NCBI RefSeq assembly: GCF_000420945.1
Contig: NZ_ATVX01000002.1
Span: forward strand, 248,001 to 312,000
Length of the DNA stretch: 64,000 nucleotides
Direction: 5' to 3'
From: Butyrivibrio sp. VCB2006
GTDB lineage: Bacteria; Bacillota; Clostridia; Lachnospirales; Lachnospiraceae
Below the pieces are notes generated by a model, which was not told the origin of the DNA, did no database searches, and saw only the letters and a program-made list of their open reading frames with translations. The position numbers were made by a program, and so were the translations under genes. This document shows, in pieces, positions 44,668 to 51,696 of this stretch; the stretch's first letter is position 1; each line of letters opens with the position of its first letter.

Positions 44668-46383
44668 TTATTTATAAAGGTATTCCCACGGAATGAATTG
44701 AAGGCCCTCGATATTAGGCTTTTCATTTGGATCAGGATAGGCCTTCATATAGTCGATGATAAGATCAAGCTTTTCTGAGGCACTTTCGCACATAACAGTA
44801 GCGTCTTTTTCCATCCCCTCTATCCTCCAGGCTTTACCGGCAAAAGAAATCTTGCAGACATATGTCATTTCTTTTGTACTAAGATCATCATTATCATACT
44901 TGCCGATTCCTATGTAGGAGATACCTGTTTTCCCGGACATATGGTCCTTGTTTGTGTTGGTGGCAACAAGCCAACCATCTCCGCAAAAGGCAACGTCCTC
45001 ATCCTCTATTACTGCCTTCTTAAGCCCTTTTGCCTTGGCATATTTTTTGTAGTCAAAATCATAATCAGGGTGGAAATCAGAAGCATGCACACCATCATTT
45101 AAAGACGTTGCATCTACAGCGCCCTTTGAGGAGGACTTTTCGCCGGAATACGATTTTGCCGACTCTGTTGTACCTTCCGTAGACGATGTATTGCCTAATT
45201 CACCACCTATATAGAAATACCTTGTCTCCTTATCTGAAACCATCAGTGCAATTACAGGGCCGTAGGTTCTTTGAACATATGAGCCCATTCCCTTGGCAAA
45301 ATCCTTGGCCACTACGTGCTGATCTCTATCAATAATACTGAAGGATTTCAGATCATCGGAAACCAAAGCATATCCGTAGTAATTGAAATTTGATGCATCC
45401 GCATACATAGCTATTTCGTTGAAAGAATCGTCAGCATAGCCATACTTACTTTCATCTGCATTAGCCACTAAATATCCACTCATGCCATCTGTCATGATTC
45501 GACCACAATAACCAAATTTAGACTTATCGTACTCAGGAGTTCCAAATTCTGCCAGGTTAAGACCTGAAGGGTCCTCCAATTCAAGCTTATGAACATCCAT
45601 ACCAAAAACAGGTGAATTATCAGGACGTACCACTTCAATGAAATAATCAGAATTGTTGGAGTTTGCCATTGCAAGATATCCATCATCCCCTGAATCCCAG
45701 GAAGATTTGATAGTTTTGATAAGTTCTCCTTTGGTGTCGTATAAATCAATAGTGCCTTCATTGGTATATATGTTATTGCACGCAATTTGGAACCCTAGCT
45801 GTATATCATCCTGGAATATATATGGGATGCTTACACCACAGGCTTCATCATAATCAGGGGCTTTTGTAATCTCTTTTAATTTGTTGCCTTCATAATCAAA
45901 AACTGCAATTGTATATACGTAATTAGCAGACTTTTCGCATATGATAGTATCTTTAAATGGTGCTACTATCTTCCAATTCTTGGTATATGAGCTTAAATCA
46001 ATTTCTTTTACCGATACCGGTTCACCTTCAGTTAGGCCACAAACTTCGCATGTTTTGGGAGCATCGATAGTCGCAAAGGTCCACTGATGCTCAAGAGGCT
46101 CCCCTTCAGTCTCCCCGCAGCGTGAACAGGTCTTTGGGGCTTCACAGGTAGCTTCCACCCAGTCATGGCCCAGGGCCTCGCCTTCTGTCGCACCACATTC
46201 CTCGCAGGTGCGTGGAGTTGTGCAGGTAGCTTCAGTCCAAGAGTGTTCATGTGCAGATGCCGGAGTTTCTTCTATGGCAGCCGGTTCCCCTGAGTTTGTT
46301 GCGGTACTTCCACAAGCGGTAAAAGCCGTCATTACAATCATAGTTACAGTAAGGATAAAAAAGGATTTCTTTCTCTTTATCAT
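44668..46383 (-). CDS. Lipoprotein with zinc-ribbon-like repeats
   Basis: 571 residues. Signal peptide and lipobox (MTAFTACGS, Cys about 25). Between about 40 and 135 there are three tandem repeats of the form HxWxxATCxxPxTCxxCGxTEGExxx; the third has lost its first Cys. The rest is a large beta-rich region with many Asp/Tyr/Gly, resembling surface-exposed propeller-like proteins. Similar repeats decorate surface proteins of gut Firmicutes, and the function is unknown. Start at 46383 (MIKRKKS) with GAGG at eight bases; an ATG six bases upstream is too close to it. Own terminator; expressed singly. Confidence 0.8.
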   Translation of the reverse strand: MIKRKKSFFILTVTMIVMTAFTACGSTATNSGEPAAIEETPASAHEHSWTEATCTTPRTCEECGATEGEALGHDWVEATCEAPKTCSRCGETEGEPLEHQWTFATIDAPKTCEVCGLTEGEPVSVKEIDLSSYTKNWKIVAPFKDTIICEKSANYVYTIAVFDYEGNKLKEITKAPDYDEACGVSIPYIFQDDIQLGFQIACNNIYTNEGTIDLYDTKGELIKTIKSSWDSGDDGYLAMANSNNSDYFIEVVRPDNSPVFGMDVHKLELEDPSGLNLAEFGTPEYDKSKFGYCGRIMTDGMSGYLVANADESKYGYADDSFNEIAMYADASNFNYYGYALVSDDLKSFSIIDRDQHVVAKDFAKGMGSYVQRTYGPVIALMVSDKETRYFYIGGELGNTSSTEGTTESAKSYSGEKSSSKGAVDATSLNDGVHASDFHPDYDFDYKKYAKAKGLKKAVIEDEDVAFCGDGWLVATNTNKDHMSGKTGISYIGIGKYDNDDLSTKEMTYVCKISFAGKAWRIEGMEKDATVMCESASEKLDLIIDYMKAYPDPNEKPNIEGLQFIPWEYLYK

Positions 46384-46472
46384 GCCCATCGCCTCATATT
46401 ATTACGTCAATTACCTATCGTTATATAGAGCAATTATATCATAGTAAATCATCGTTTATAATAATTTCTTCT

Positions 46473-46558: not shown

Positions 46559-47362
46559 TTACATTAGATAATTATCAATCATTTTCTTGATAGTCCTATC
46601 GTTAAGCACAACATTTGTTGTTTCAAAAGTAAGCATCAGACTATCTCCCGGAAGTATTCCATTGAAGATATAGGAATTTATCTTTCTTACAGCTTTTTCG
46701 GAATATTTGGGATCATCCATTCTGCCATCGTGTTCCCAATATATTTCTTTTCCGGTTTTACGACTGAGCATTGTAAAGTCAGGATGTACCTGGCCATATC
46801 CCTTTAGATATATTGGGCATTCATATTTATATTCAATTCCCATATCAAATAAAGTATCTGCTATCAGCTTTTCTGATTTTGATCTTACTCTTTCTCCTTT
46901 TTTGGTATATATCTCAGGAGTACCTTCTTCGAATTCTTTACCGGTATAGGGAATTGATTTCCAATCGTAAACTCTTTGTTCCCAAGATACTTCATACGGA
47001 CTTACATATTTTTGTTTTATAGGATGCATATTATTGTAAATATCTTCTAGCTCTTTATCATAATAATCCACGTTCAATCTTTGGATTTGATTAAGTCTTT
47101 TTTCTACAATCCTCTTCATTTTTTTATCATATTCTTTTTGAACTAGCGGTTTAATATTATCTCTTTTATCTTTTGTAATATATTGCCCTATTTTTCTACT
47201 TTTAAAGTTTTCATCTGTACAATGAAAAAACATAGGATAATTTCCAGTAGATGACACTCTTATTTTTCCCTCTGGTGCATTAGATAGACTTTCTTCTATC
47301 TTCTGTTTCATATTCTTTAATCTATTCTCCTCGAGTTCTAGCATCTGTTTTAATCCATACAT
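46559..47362 (-). CDS. Predicted PD-(D/E)XK nuclease of a Clostridial family
   Basis: 267 residues, A/T-rich. The N-terminal ~130 residues are a charged coiled coil (LEENRLKNMKQKIEESL, KKMKRIVEKRLNQIQ). The C-terminal part has the order of a PD-(D/E)XK nuclease: Glu in RSKSEKLIADTL (about 170), Asp in GQVHPDFTML (about 200), and EIYWEHDGRMDDPKYSEKAV. Similar proteins occur in many Clostridia without an assigned function. Start at 47362 (MYGLKQML) after GAGGAG; earlier ATGs lack a site. The 52-bp-period array begins 55 bases upstream, in what would be its promoter and leader. Confidence 0.75.
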   Translation of the reverse strand: MYGLKQMLELEENRLKNMKQKIEESLSNAPEGKIRVSSTGNYPMFFHCTDENFKSRKIGQYITKDKRDNIKPLVQKEYDKKMKRIVEKRLNQIQRLNVDYYDKELEDIYNNMHPIKQKYVSPYEVSWEQRVYDWKSIPYTGKEFEEGTPEIYTKKGERVRSKSEKLIADTLFDMGIEYKYECPIYLKGYGQVHPDFTMLSRKTGKEIYWEHDGRMDDPKYSEKAVRKINSYIFNGILPGDSLMLTFETTNVVLNDRTIKKMIDNYLM

Positions 47363-47417
47363 ATTGTTTTCTCCTCTTTTCATATTCATATTTCATGTTC
47401 ATCTTATTTTTAATGAT

Positions 47418-47817
47418 TTATGTTAATTCAGAGCTTTTCTCCAACTAACATATACATTATTAGGCATGGTTATGTTCTTTTCAGTTTTTTCTCTTTTGAA
47501 CATAGTGTTTGGCAGTCTTGTTTATGTTCGCTACAAGTTTCTCTCCTGCTAACATAAATATTTGAAAGACTATTTATGTTAGCTACAGATTTTTCACTAA
47601 CTAACATAATTTCAAGCTGTTTTATTTATGTTAATTCTCCATTTTATTCATACAAACATAATCTCCTAAAAAAATCATTATGTTCACTTCGGGTTTTGTT
47701 CAATAGAACATAATGCTAGGTAATTACCATTAAGTTAGCCATAGATTTTCCTCATACCAACATAATTACATACAAAGATTTATATGTTAGTGGCAAATAA
47801 TCAGCTAGCTAACATAA
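47418..47817. repeat. Array of eight TTATGTT-N22-AACATAA units, exact 52-bp period
   Basis: Units start at 47418, 47470, 47522, 47574, 47626, 47678, 47730 and 47782. Each is 36 bases: TTATGTT, 22 bases, AACATAA. Sixteen variable bases separate units, with no length variation anywhere. Left heptamers are exact in units 1-6 (TTAAGTT in 7, ATATGTT in 8); right heptamers are exact in 3-8 (AACATAT in 1, AACATAG in 2): 108 of 112 positions agree. Inside the 22 bases a weaker core TTTT-N-CTC stands at positions 10-17, with C at 17 in all eight. The 16-base spacers share little. The outer heptamers at each end are the imperfect ones. It does not code through (52 is not a multiple of 3). Function unknown. 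Confidence 0.93.
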
Positions 47818-47978: not shown

Positions 47979-48082
47979 ACTGTAACTTTCACTGCCTATA
48001 TTTCGAATTTTCAGAATAGTGGCAGCCTGCCAGACAGGCAGACCGCCAAATGTTACACAAATACAATTGAATTGGTCAAATT

Positions 48083-48163
48083 CGACCAATTTCTTTCTAA
48101 ACAGCTCTCACACCCGCATAGTTAAGCGGTTGTCTTTGTAAGTAACACCACCGTCTCAACATG
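48083..48163 (-). repeat. att-like copy of the rlmD 3' end (left copy)
   Basis: 81 bases align without gaps to 59726-59806 with ten mismatches by my count. On the minus strand it encodes HVETVVLLTKTTA and stop, identical in protein to the end of the intact rlmD, with most coding differences silent. Homology stops sharply after CTCAACATG. This is the pattern left when an element integrates at a gene's 3' end and carries its own replacement end. Confidence 0.75.
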
Positions 48164-48281: not shown

Positions 48282-49439
48282 ATGATCAGAAATAACGATT
48301 TTACTCTTGAATATATCGGCGACACTCCTTGTCTGCTAACACATGGTCAAAGCGTAGCAGATAGGAAGAAAAGCTTATTTCTAAATGATACCGGTGTTTT
48401 TATCTGGAATTTACTCTCCAAAGATCTGACAATTGAAGAAATCTTTGATAGTTGCTATGAACACTTTGAGATAGACGAGGCAGATCGCCCTGACGCAAAG
48501 CGTTCCATTCAAAGCTTTATGGATTCCCTTTGTTATTCAGGAATGGTTATAGATACTGATTTTTATAAAAAGCTTAAACTCAAGAAATATGTCAGCATGA
48601 ATATTGCCGGTATCTGCGTAAATCTGTTCGGCAAGGAAGAAATGTTTGATGATAGCTTTATGTCTTTTGCTGATGATGAATACACTTGCTCAGCTGATAA
48701 AACCCAGAATATTTATGTCTATCATATTGCACCTGTAATACATAAATCCGGTGAACTGATCATTCGTGATAAAGAGGTATCCGTCATAAAAACATGTGAT
48801 GAATATATTCTCATTTTCCCGTTATGGGAGCATGTTGACGAGCTTCATATATCACCGGACGGACAGAAGGTATCTGTTTTTGTTAAAGATACTGATAATG
48901 CCAAGGAAGAAGTATTCTGGGCTATTCGTCACGCTTTCCTTTATATGGCAAGAATCCATAACTTATTTGCCATACATTCGGTTTCCGTAGAGTATGATCA
49001 CAAGGCTCTTCTCTTTTCTGCCGGATCCGGAATCGGCAAAAGTACACATGCAGCGCTTTGGAATAGGTTGTACGGCGTAAGACAGATCAACGGCGATTTG
49101 AATCTATTGGGAAAAGGTGATGATGGCAAAATATATGCGTATGGCATGCCATGGTGTGGAACTTCAGGAATCTATGATGCTAAAGACTATGAGCTTAGAG
49201 GAATAGTACTGCTTCGTCAGGATCCCAAGAATTTTGTAAGTCATTTGCAGCCGGAAGCTAAAGCTCTGGCTATTATGAACCGAATCATCTCTCCGATGTG
49301 GAATAGTGAGATGACCTTAAGCGTTATTCGCTTCGCGCAGGAAGTTAGCGCTGACTATCCTGTATGGAATTACAGCTGCAACACCTCAGATGATGCAGCT
49401 GCATTCATAAAGTCCCAAATCGATAGTCCAACAGCTTAA
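48282..49439 (+). CDS. PqqD-like domain fused to an HPr-kinase-like domain
   Basis: 385 residues. The N-terminal ~90 (SLFLNDTGVFIWNLLSKDLTIEEI) is a PqqD / RiPP-recognition winged helix, which in RiPP pathways binds leader peptides. The C-terminal half is HPr-kinase-like: Walker A SAGSGIGKSTHAALW at 246-260, INGDLNLL in the place of the usual DD motif, and GMPWCGTSG, a loop also found in lasso-peptide-associated kinases. It probably recognises and phosphorylates or otherwise handles a partner peptide. Ribosome site weak. Converges on the ABC exporter gene with four bases between stops, and together with the precursor gene forms a three-gene cassette. Confidence 0.78.
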   Translation: MIRNNDFTLEYIGDTPCLLTHGQSVADRKKSLFLNDTGVFIWNLLSKDLTIEEIFDSCYEHFEIDEADRPDAKRSIQSFMDSLCYSGMVIDTDFYKKLKLKKYVSMNIAGICVNLFGKEEMFDDSFMSFADDEYTCSADKTQNIYVYHIAPVIHKSGELIIRDKEVSVIKTCDEYILIFPLWEHVDELHISPDGQKVSVFVKDTDNAKEEVFWAIRHAFLYMARIHNLFAIHSVSVEYDHKALLFSAGSGIGKSTHAALWNRLYGVRQINGDLNLLGKGDDGKIYAYGMPWCGTSGIYDAKDYELRGIVLLRQDPKNFVSHLQPEAKALAIMNRIISPMWNSEMTLSVIRFAQEVSADYPVWNYSCNTSDDAAAFIKSQIDSPTA

Positions 49440-49443
49440 GTAT

Positions 49444-51213
49444 TCAGGCGATGCTTTCCATCTCGCTGATTTCCTCATCAGATAACTTACAACAGTTGCC
49501 GTTTCTGATAGCATATACTCTATCGCATTGTTTTAATACTGAAGGTCTATGTGTAGTAATAATAGTGGTCCTTGGATATTCATCTGCCATGATATTCTTA
49601 AGGACCTCTTTTTCTGTCCATACATCAAGAGCAGAGGTTGCTTCATCCAGAAGAAGTATAGGCGACTGTCTAAGGATTGCTCTGGCAATAGACAACCTCT
49701 GGGCCTGTCCCTCTGAAAAGCCACTGCCATGCTCTCCCATTTCACTGTTTATGCCTTCAGGAAGTTTCTTGACAAAGTCCCACGCACAAGCCATTTTCAG
49801 GGCTTTGATGATTTCGTCATCCGTTGCATCCTTTTTTACATTTCTCATATTTTGAGCTATAGTTCCCGAGAACATTGTATTTCCTTGTGGAACATACGCA
49901 AAAAGACTTCTCGTTGCAGCTGTTGCATAGAGACTATCTTCAAGTTCCCCATCACCGGTCGTTATACGCACCTGTCCCTCACCGGGCCTTATTATAGCAA
50001 GAAGTAGTCTTAGCATAGTTGTCTTTCCTTCGCCTGAAGGTCCGACAAATGCAACTGTCTCATGAGGATTAGCATTAAATTCAGCCTTGGAAAAGACATT
50101 TTCTGCACCTTCGTAAGCAAATGACACGTTTCTGGCTTCTACTCCTATTCCCTTACCTGCATGCTCCTGCCCAAATCTTTCAACATCTTCAGCATTGGAA
50201 TAATCATCTCTTGGAAGGTCCAGTATGCTTTTAACTCGGTCAGCTGAGTTAAACAAGCTAAGAGACGTTGGTACAAAACTGATAAGATTAGAAACTGAGC
50301 CAGTAAGAGAACTTGAAAGGCCTATAAACATGGTCATTGTTCCGTATGTGATAGCTCCGCTCCAAACCTTATATACGCCCCATGCCTGTGCAGAGTAGGA
50401 TACAAGCATAGATACAAATGTCAGTATAAAAGTATTGAGCATTGATATCTTCTGGTACTTAAGCGTAGCTTCTGAATATCCTTTTTGTATTTCTTTTAGC
50501 CTGTCTATGTGATATGACAGCATATCAAAAGCTTTTATTGTCTGAATATTCGAGAAGGTCTCCTGATGAAAACCGTTCATTCTAGCGGATGCTGACATAG
50601 TTCCCATTCCGCTCTTTCTCATCATCTTCATAGAATAGCGCGAACTGATCAGTGTTATCGGGATGCTGGCAAGCGCAAAAATAGCGAATGTCCAATCGTA
50701 TATGCAAACCATATATAAAGCGGATACAAATCTGAAAATATAGATTATAAGGTTTGGTACAAGTGTCAAAATTCCTGATGCAATATTGGAAGCGTCACTT
50801 CCGCATCTCATAACAAGGTCACCGGAATGATATTTAGACAGGGATTGCCAATCCGTTCGTAATATTCCTTCAAAGATCTGCGCCTTTATCTCATTATTAA
50901 CCTTAAGACTGATTTTGGTGGAAAGGTAACCTGATATCTGCGAAACACAAGTATTCACTACTGTAAGTACAATCATGATTATAAATGTGCGCAAAAGTTC
51001 CCCTGTGCGATGTCCTGTGATTATATCAACCAGATCTCGTGAATTAAGGCTTGTAAAAAGACCAAGTATTATTCCGGTCATGCCAAGTAAAGTGTATATT
51101 ACAATAGCGGGTATATGGTTTATTGCATATCCATATATCCACTTGAATATCAATAGCTTGTCTTTTAGCTTTCCTTCTTTAATTTTGTTGAAATAATATC
51201 TTATCTTCCCCAT
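49444..51213 (-). CDS. ABC exporter, fused permease-ATPase
   Basis: About 589 residues. Six membrane helices in the first ~310 (AIVIYTLLGMTGIILGLF onward), then an ATPase domain: Walker A GPSGEGKTTMLRLL, signature FSEGQAQRLSIARAIL (unusual E in LSGGQ), Walker B ILLLDEATSALD. It lacks the C39 peptidase that clips double-glycine leaders, so any leader would be removed by another protease. Start at 51213 (MGKIRYYF) since the earlier ATG lies inside a terminator hairpin; no clear ribosome site, so expression may depend on readthrough from the precursor gene. Confidence 0.88.
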   Translation of the reverse strand: MGKIRYYFNKIKEGKLKDKLLIFKWIYGYAINHIPAIVIYTLLGMTGIILGLFTSLNSRDLVDIITGHRTGELLRTFIIMIVLTVVNTCVSQISGYLSTKISLKVNNEIKAQIFEGILRTDWQSLSKYHSGDLVMRCGSDASNIASGILTLVPNLIIYIFRFVSALYMVCIYDWTFAIFALASIPITLISSRYSMKMMRKSGMGTMSASARMNGFHQETFSNIQTIKAFDMLSYHIDRLKEIQKGYSEATLKYQKISMLNTFILTFVSMLVSYSAQAWGVYKVWSGAITYGTMTMFIGLSSSLTGSVSNLISFVPTSLSLFNSADRVKSILDLPRDDYSNAEDVERFGQEHAGKGIGVEARNVSFAYEGAENVFSKAEFNANPHETVAFVGPSGEGKTTMLRLLLAIIRPGEGQVRITTGDGELEDSLYATAATRSLFAYVPQGNTMFSGTIAQNMRNVKKDATDDEIIKALKMACAWDFVKKLPEGINSEMGEHGSGFSEGQAQRLSIARAILRQSPILLLDEATSALDVWTEKEVLKNIMADEYPRTTIITTHRPSVLKQCDRVYAIRNGNCCKLSDEEISEMESIA

Positions 51214-51218
51214 ATCGT

Positions 51219-51252
51219 AAAAAAGGAGCACCACGTTCATATGTGGTGCTCC
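51219..51252 (-). terminator. Terminator between precursor and exporter
   Basis: Perfect 10-bp stem GGAGCACCAC with an eight-base loop; on the minus strand it is followed by TTTTTT. It lies 19 bases after the precursor stop and immediately before the exporter start, so most transcripts end here and some read through. Confidence 0.85.
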
Positions 51253-51270
51253 AATAAAAATCTTTAATAA

Positions 51271-51696
51271 TTAGTTAAGAGGCTGTACATCTCTTATTTT
51301 AAGTTCAGTCATTGTACCACTTGTACCTGATTCACGAATAGAACCGCCATCAACAATAGCTTGGAAAATGAAATCTGTCCATTCGTTAGCATTAAGATGT
51401 CTATTAACATCAATACGAAAAGATGTATCAGATTCTTTTGTTATTGAAAACTCAGAACTTCCAAAGCTCTTAATTGGTACTGTTGAATCAATATAGATTC
51501 TGAATCTCTCACAAACCTCATTTAATGGATTCTGGAAGTGTACTCTGACGTCTGTATGAGATCCGCCATTGTTGTTATCGTCATTAAGCCATGCGCTGGG
51601 TGGATTCGGAACAAGAGTTCCACTTCCGCCAAAAACACCTTCAGCTGTAAATTCGAAACCAAGTTCCATTAACTGTGGTGCTTCAAAAGTCTTCAT
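51271..51696 (-). CDS. Putative exported precursor with RiPP-like leader
   Basis: 141 residues. Begins MKTFEAPQLMELGFEFTAEG and then VFGGSG. The opening resembles the MKxYExPxL leaders of many Clostridial RiPP precursors, and a double glycine is at residues 23-24. The remainder is a beta-sandwich-like domain with alternating hydrophobic strands (TDVRVHFQNPLNEVCERFRI, then EWTDFIFQAIVDGG). No classical signal peptide and no membrane helix. GGGGGT precedes the ATG. It is transcribed first, from a strong promoter and ahead of a terminator, then the ABC exporter. A PqqD/HPr-kinase-like gene is convergent. Export of this protein, or of a part of it, is inferred. Confidence 0.7.
   Translation of the reverse strand: MKTFEAPQLMELGFEFTAEGVFGGSGTLVPNPPSAWLNDDNNNGGSHTDVRVHFQNPLNEVCERFRIYIDSTVPIKSFGSSEFSITKESDTSFRIDVNRHLNANEWTDFIFQAIVDGGSIRESGTSGTMTELKIRDVQPLN

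Follow-up and report, generated by a model that had tools for sequence, protein, structure and literature searches.

A palindromic array of 52-bp period in Butyrivibrio sp. VCB2006, the apparent private DNA address of an adjoining predicted nuclease gene

What is a row of eight short, evenly spaced palindromes doing in front of a predicted nuclease gene? The row lies at positions 47418–47817 (no strand assigned) of a 64,000-nucleotide stretch of the Butyrivibrio sp. VCB2006 genome, here called the window. Direct reading and a pattern scan both give eight 36-bp units, TTATGTT-N22-AACATAA, with 16-bp linkers and an exact 52-bp period, as the first-pass annotation had described. Unit 1 (47418–47453; right arm AACATAT) is closest to the nuclease gene and is followed by unit 2 (47470–47505; right arm AACATAG), units 3 (47522–47557), 4 (47574–47609), 5 (47626–47661) and 6 (47678–47713) with perfect arms, unit 7 (47730–47765; left arm TTAAGTT) and unit 8 (47782–47817; left arm ATATGTT). 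The count of four mismatches in 112 arm positions was reproduced, one each in units 1, 2, 7 and 8. No two inserts are alike, and the conserved core noticed inside them was recovered as one C present in all eight (column identity 1.00) and a T run with four columns conserved at 0.75. Read in the sense of the gene, this run is an A tract. The units resemble one another most in the arms (mean identity 0.93) and far less in the 22-bp inserts (0.47) and 16-bp linkers (0.34), in keeping with the earlier view that the arms look selected.

Allowing up to three mismatches, the single-unit pattern matches 11 times in the window, which is near chance (shuffle mean 7.86; 19 of 100 shuffles reach 11); eight of the 11 have 0–1 mismatch and stand in the exact 52-bp register. 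A 59-bp pattern of arm, insert, arm, linker and arm (≤2 mismatches) has 20 matches per strand in the 3.95-Mb genome of the window (G000), and its reversed control has 0. These matches group into four separate arrays, the window array and those on contigs C4, C7 and C16, so the window array is not unique. Tandem Repeats Finder did not report it because its units are unlike each other outside the arms. Chance is ruled out as its source.

The cognate nuclease gene, defined from the ORF list, sequence, family and fold, is on the minus strand at 46559–47362 and encodes a protein (P0001) of 267 aa from an ATG at 47362. An AGGAG-like ribosome site precedes this ATG; the mechanical ORF extends to 47389. 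Array and start codon are separated by a 55-bp leader read from the sequence (47363–47417, minus strand). The promoter probably overlaps the array or lies past it, and a promoter scan found sites no more numerous than in shuffles. P0001 has no Pfam match at E 1. Its residues 162–274 match the C-terminal domain of the PADLOC defence candidate PDC-S68 (7.8e-26), and the nuclease domain has weaker PADLOC matches to PDC-S69 and HEAT_CxxC_PDDEXK. An AlphaFold2 model (pLDDT 89, pTM 0.71) places a beta-hairpin (residues 42–57) between two long helices at the N terminus, followed by the nuclease domain. The nearest solved folds of this domain are the I-Bth0305I catalytic domain (89 residues, rmsd 2.5), whose Z of 9.1 is only somewhat above the middling range, Bax1 (8.3) and Vsr (7.2), a Z under 8 being one that can mean merely a common arrangement. 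Foldseek returned no PDB match for the model at E 0.001 or better. Residues E173, D204, E219 and H220 are invariant in a 73-sequence alignment; alignment A2 excluded L049, an apparent P0002 duplicate, together with the 12 of 80 loci whose matched range contains an in-frame stop. The C-terminal domain is modelled as a Vsr/I-Bth0305I-like PD-(D/E)XK nuclease fold.

Several other features surround the array. A single unit of another array family, CTGCCTA-N20-GTGGCAG, recognised by sequence comparison with L044–L048, lies beside it at 47992–48025 (no strand assigned). A single unit of the CTGCC/GGCAG type is also found near the C16 array, and a half-site of that type at C4. A terminator-like palindrome, AATTGGTCGAATTTGACCAATT, occupies 48070–48091 on the minus strand between the array and a PqqD gene. 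The genes at 48282–51696, beside the array, encode a PqqD-domain protein, an ABC transporter with an ATPase domain and a 141-aa ORF, and might form a RiPP-type peptide maturation and export cluster. A 573-aa ORF at 44668–46389 has, by eye, three CxxC-type repeats near its N terminus and a lipoprotein-like start.

Four paralogues of the nuclease gene in G000 each seemed, by eye, to lie near palindromes of another word, and a test of the association between gene and array was therefore made. L014 has other-word arrays on both sides (score 25 directly 3′ and 17 at >1 kb 5′), the nearest being the 3′ one. L016 has a weak array (score 9). L015 has three exact hairpins and L013 one, both below the mismatch-tolerant detector; L013 has only 317 bp upstream. 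The nuclease-family profile finds matches in 70 of the 79 genus genomes, with several in many of them. Beyond the genus it has at least 523 relatives, of which the best 80, from Lachnospiraceae and other Clostridia, were kept as loci. Upstream sequence of at least 200 bp was available for 76 of the 80, and an array was defined as palindromes of period 50–56 scoring ≥8 within 1 kb 5′. Arrays were found upstream in 61/76 loci, at a median of 111 bp from the gene over these 61. Controls gave 5/80 downstream, 1/53 far upstream, 0/73 far downstream and 0/76 in Markov sequences. In the 50 loci scoring ≥10 the period is 53 (25 loci), 54 (20), 52 (4) or 51 (1). In an exact 7-mer test, 40 of 80 whole loci have at least two hairpins with the same word and loop length, and shuffles gave 0/240. 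Fifteen of the 76 loci score below the array threshold; a wider detector found period-53 arrays scoring ≥8 in five of them (L062, L064, L100, L106 and L107; shuffles up to 6). Four of the five downstream-positive loci (L074, L076, L116 and L119) have arrays on both sides, as does L014; at L109 the 3′ side alone scores.

The words differ among loci. They include TTATGTT, TACGGTT, CTGCCTA, GTGGCAG, CCTGTTG, TTGACTC, TAGTAGC and others, about twenty by eye among 43 loci. Word similarity tracks protein identity (Mantel rho 0.41, p 0.001, 43 loci). The detector picks well-matching arms, which makes arm conservation across families partly a product of construction. After correction for overall identity, the protein columns most tied to the word include V45, S46, F55 and H56 in the beta-hairpin, H202, S239 and others; positions 45, 46, 55 and 56 are within the 25 most word-associated columns. 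These hairpin columns are a lead and not a test. Association, co-evolution and dispersal are shown by computation, and the window array looks like a private DNA address belonging to the adjoining nuclease gene, the link through which it is best understood.

The dispersal is seen within and between genomes. Had the pattern occurred nowhere else, the first-pass annotation would have taken it for a chance or decayed minisatellite; it recurs in its own genome and in three congeners. At one mismatch the TTATGTT pattern is present in 5 of 145 genomes examined, own genome included, and in 4 of 79 genus genomes (G000, G010, G017 and G054); a lone match in a genome of another family is probably chance. 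The G010 array adjoins the same nuclease gene, whose product is 79% identical to the window protein. G054 has a TTATGTT array and a weak nuclease-family match (E 4.4e-9), which implies that an array can persist after the protein is lost, or originate elsewhere. The three further TTATGTT arrays of G000 are intergenic, without a nuclease-family member alongside. The copies on C4 and C7 agree at 91% of positions along 336 bp, and the likeness runs 4 bases past the array at one end and about 35 at the other, which indicates duplication of a whole array to a new place. Their six inserts have diverged unevenly: two have 8 changes in 22 positions, three have 0, 0 and 1, and one carries an indel, a pattern left unaccounted for by plain drift.

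Other words are dispersed as well. The word of paralogue L014, TGGTATTAC-N14-GTAATACCA, at three mismatches has 50 matches per strand in G000 (control 2), in arrays on both sides of the L014 gene and in six satellites (two on C1, two on C4 and one each on C5 and C29). Exact TACGGTT-N22-24-AACCGTA hairpins were counted in 12 genomes picked because their gene-side arrays carry TACGGTT or a close word. The counts were 0, 1, 2, 2, 3, 4, 8, 11, 12, 17, 52 and 114, and the control was 0 in 11 of the 12 genomes and 1 in one. The two richest genomes, with 52 and 114, belong to Eisenbergiella (G147 and G148; control 0). Twenty stretches from these two (18 from G148, 2 from G147) were compared with L203 as query. 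The L203 element is common to 18 of the 20, query counted; 16 of the 18 G148 stretches match, L203 among them, and 13 do so over at least 280 bp. One Eisenbergiella genome therefore holds at least 13 related array copies. Fifteen copies align over about 430 columns, with common flanking sequence that reaches past the array and conservation that declines outside it without a sharp stop at the ends. In some genomes, then, arrays are amplified interspersed elements.

The cognate palindromes are dispersed, extragenic and of alternating orientation. Nine of ten array places checked overlap no ORF of ≥90 aa, and one overlaps a 95-aa antisense ORF; the L009 satellite sits between converging genes. 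When the C16 and C4 flanks were searched in the 79 genus genomes, none of the matches listed joins the flanks without an array. No target-site duplication or clean empty site was found at two satellite arrays, at one sister-genome element or in the Eisenbergiella alignment. In the sister pair G145/G146, one array element stands at no fewer than two places in G145 (three contig ends). G146 has a near-identical element at one of these places, beside cassette-like gene runs; contig breaks stand in the way of a clean empty-site proof. Satellite arrays may disturb assembly, as three contigs of one genome end in such arrays. Two candidate junction sites were rejected. The G145/G146 junction motif was considered as an integron-like attC site and has only two copies each in G145 and G146 and none in G000 (≤3 mismatches), and TTTTGATATAGGCAG is too rare in G000 (four places at ≤1 mismatch against one in the control).

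Some satellite regions have further features. In L199 (G146:C13) and L200 (G146:C12), short single-gene ORFs follow one another on the same strand in long, cassette-like runs, and several of the gene starts have a recurrent ACAAACTTGAATTTRTG-like motif nearby. These regions adjoin satellite arrays and differ between the sister genomes. At L167:1700–2380 (G000:C4:187 kb), a nine-unit satellite array stands, by eye, between imperfect inverted repeats, GATGCATATCAAGGCACGC...GCGTGCCTTGACATGCATC, and resembles a non-autonomous transposon with terminal repeats. A further dispersed element, L009:8433–8578 (G000:C4), measures about 145 bp, contains the long palindrome ACTAAGGATGG...CCATCCTTAGT and matches no Rfam family at gathering score. 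Among the matches listed, it recurs in many genus genomes, several times in some.

We moderately favour a reading in which nuclease and half-site array form a system like REP/BIME-RAYT built on an unrelated nuclease, with arrays that spread as non-autonomous elements. The array would be a row of double-stranded DNA half-sites for the protein of the adjacent gene, a predicted coiled-coil joined to a Vsr/homing-endonuclease-like PD-(D/E)XK domain. Because inverted half-sites of 7–9 bp recur about every five helical turns, protein dimers could load repeatedly along one face. Gene and array would together be a master locus, and same-word arrays elsewhere its non-autonomous satellites, as BIME arrays are to RAYT genes. 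In its favour are the upstream arrays, the co-evolution of word and protein, the satellites, the predicted nuclease fold with its invariant residues, purifying selection on the gene, and arms that show no surplus of compensating changes. The 15 loci below threshold, the 3′ arrays of L014 and L109, the G054 array and the uneven C4 and C7 inserts weigh against it. The nuclease probably binds the half-sites. That such binding autoregulates the nuclease gene is about as likely as not. Nicking or cutting at arrays could drive unit amplification and the spread of whole arrays, a step for which we would put the case slightly below even; satellite spread may instead rely on host recombination or another enzyme. 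More tentatively still, these loci may represent a selfish or domesticated repeat class in which a Vsr-like PD-(D/E)XK nuclease reads a private, five-turn-spaced word through its helical and beta-hairpin domain and amplifies and disperses its own arrays. Word and protein would diversify together and so yield several orthogonal pairs per genome.

An alternative that is rather unlikely, yet deserves serious weight, is that the array is only a multi-site operator for its own gene, and perhaps for satellite-side genes, spread by replication slippage and recombination. The mostly 5′ position (61/76 against 5/80 on the 3′ side, median distance 111 bp) and the mere 55 bp to the start codon in the window agree with an operator, as do strong purifying selection and a conserved place. 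For selection, dN/dS is 0.07–0.16 in 44 of 49 close, non-independent pairs, with the highest values 0.72 (a nearly identical pair) and 0.36; values this low indicate that the protein is maintained by purifying selection, whereas the satellites differ between genomes. For place, 16–17 of 80 loci (L071–L085 and others) have ORFs upstream of the nuclease gene that we take, by eye, to be rplM and rpsI, so that the position of one subfamily or more seems to be long-standing. However, a pure repressor would have no need of the invariant nuclease residues, and some satellites, such as L009 between its converging genes, have no obvious operator target.

Under a second alternative, which we regard as improbable, the gene belongs to a defence or restriction system whose nuclease cuts invading DNA and whose arrays sequester, regulate or prime that nuclease. 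The kinship of the nuclease domain with the C-terminal domain of PDC-S68, and its weaker kinship with PDC-S69 and HEAT_CxxC_PDDEXK, speak for it, as does a family match in 70 of 79 genus genomes, many with several. However, the PADLOC matches cover mainly the C-terminal part, and the satellite arrays are left without a role. The neighbourhood also argues against defence: no family of neighbours is found at more than 17 of the 80 loci, and the commonest, which we assigned by eye, are ribosomal-protein-like, MerR-like and RNA-methyltransferase-like. Of neighbouring ORFs of ≥80 aa, 314 of 407 are co-directional with the nuclease gene. A phage, plasmid or viral origin of the nuclease was considered separately and rejected. 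A tblastn search of phages gave three records, one near full length (35% identity, E 1e-34) and two partial; the first is an unannotated 4.2-kb human-gut contig in which the array detector finds no array. Plasmids gave five records over 30–44% of the protein, four annotated as ATPase or helicase and one unannotated. In a viral structure library 12 entries matched at E ≤0.001, most of them phage proteins that are unnamed or nuclease-like, and IMG/VR gave no confirmed relative.

A third alternative, that the units are transcribed and processed to small RNAs for the nuclease as in a CRISPR- or TIGR-like guide or hairpin array, is very improbable. Its appeal lies in form. Palindrome-bordered units resemble TasA stem-loop arrays and the 36-nt unit has the length of a tigRNA, as given in PMC12045711. 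The gene-sense array transcript folds better than shuffles (z −5.3), as do seven of eight single window units, though palindromes do so regardless. A weak Cas12f match (E 0.0045) came from one of the five relatives scanned. Against an RNA array, compensation between left and right halves was not in excess over shuffles across 260 units in 51 arrays (z −0.45 for arms, −1.9 for inserts and −1.2 for linker hairpins), a test limited by the relatedness of units. Within-unit arm pairing was 425, against 425.4 expected from re-dealing within arrays; of these 51 arrays one contig counts twice (L041 and L049 are apparently the same), and L047 and L048 are near-identical. The suggestion that each 36-base unit is an RNA with a short stem found no backing in the compensation tests of arms and inserts, and duplex-DNA half-sites fit better than RNA hairpins. 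Where both arms had changed (33 cells), 24 were Watson-Crick, 2 G-U and 7 unpaired, and in the inserts there is a leaning towards pairing at the four positions that adjoin the arms (z +1.3, p 0.09) and away from it at the inner ones (z −3.2); on this account weak selection for hairpins may still act. The one-face binding proposed earlier held in its geometry, since a period of 51–54 bp, about five turns, is kept while the word changes and the arms lack excess compensation; the binding of a protein there is what we infer.

The inserts also speak against guides. They are very similar from unit to unit in at least L063, L102, L116, L119 and L123 among the arrays listed, and near-identical in some, so that units arise by duplication and those inserts are unlikely to be guides. 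The likeness to a guide array seen in the first pass is not borne out, given these similar inserts and the lack of a Cas match for the neighbouring protein, and a guide array is disfavoured by similar inserts together with the missing excess compensation. A Pfam scan at E 1 of the six ORFs between 44668 and 51696 gave no Cas match, nor did PADLOC at E 1 for P0001. The protein received no assignment to Nop, RuvC, HNH or Cas; it has no Pfam match to Nop, and Nop is not among the 25 of 43 weak families listed for its relatives. Rfam places nothing over the window array at E 1 (one sub-threshold match lies elsewhere in the window) and has no match at gathering score in L009–L011 and L041. Finally, a decayed minisatellite or chance is barely credible: tandem duplication clearly builds arrays (L102, L063 and L120), but the arms are spared while the rest diverges, many differently worded arrays stand beside one gene family, and the reversed-pattern genome control and the flank and Markov controls contradict it.

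The reading of a nuclease with its own half-site array thus describes what looks like an undescribed kind of bacterial repeat system, real and widespread. Enzyme-linked bacterial repeat systems are known with HUH tyrosine transposases (RAYTs). Here gut and rumen Clostridia show the enzyme-repeat logic of RAYTs joined to a nuclease fold unrelated to theirs; among the matches listed from open-licence literature, none names such repeats in these bacteria. If the reading is true, the loci hold a natural specificity code for a compact DNA-binding protein. The 43 word-compared loci offer ready material for working out the rules by which a small protein recognises DNA, and the origin, spread and persistence of enzyme-linked repeats become testable.

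Among known systems, Vsr and the EDxHD homing endonucleases such as I-Bth0305I offer the closest solved folds (Z 9.1 for I-Bth0305I and 7.2 for Vsr), and the present family conserves E, D, E and H residues. In contrast to homing endonucleases, the cognate words here adjoin the gene and seem not to be an interrupted target, and the N-terminal part differs. The arrays resemble CRISPR arrays in having short conserved borders and more variable interiors, but no cas gene is among the six neighbouring ORFs tested, the borders are 7 bp, and inserts evolve by duplication and drift. TIGR-Tas, in which a Nop protein works with guide RNAs, shares tandem palindrome-bordered units, linkers, the 36-nt length and an array by a single protein gene (PMC12045711). 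The present protein is, in contrast, not assigned to the Nop family, several arrays have very similar inserts, and RNA-type covariation is not clear.

The likeness to RAYT-REP/BIME systems is broader. In both, palindromic, regularly spaced, alternating-orientation extragenic repeats stand beside the gene of a DNA-cleaving enzyme (here a predicted nuclease), enzyme and repeat co-evolve, several enzyme-repeat pairs occur per genome, cognate repeats are dispersed in trans, and hybrid sites carry words of two families. The layout and the enzyme-repeat co-evolution of RAYT-REP/BIME are as given in PMC2817692 and PMC3733652, and the former infers selection for complementary mutations in REPs. The differences are in the enzyme, which here is predicted to be helical with a Vsr-like PD-(D/E)XK domain whereas RAYT is an IS200/IS605-like HUH/tyrosine transposase; in the repeats, which unlike REPs have 7–9-bp half-sites, a period of 51–54 bp and no clear arm compensation; and in the layout, as RAYT genes have two inverted flanking REPs, whereas the arrays here are mostly 5′ only (downstream in 5 of 80 loci). 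With another enzyme class, mostly one-sided arrays and selection for complementarity not evident, the Butyrivibrio system would be RAYT-like in its working and not a member of that family.
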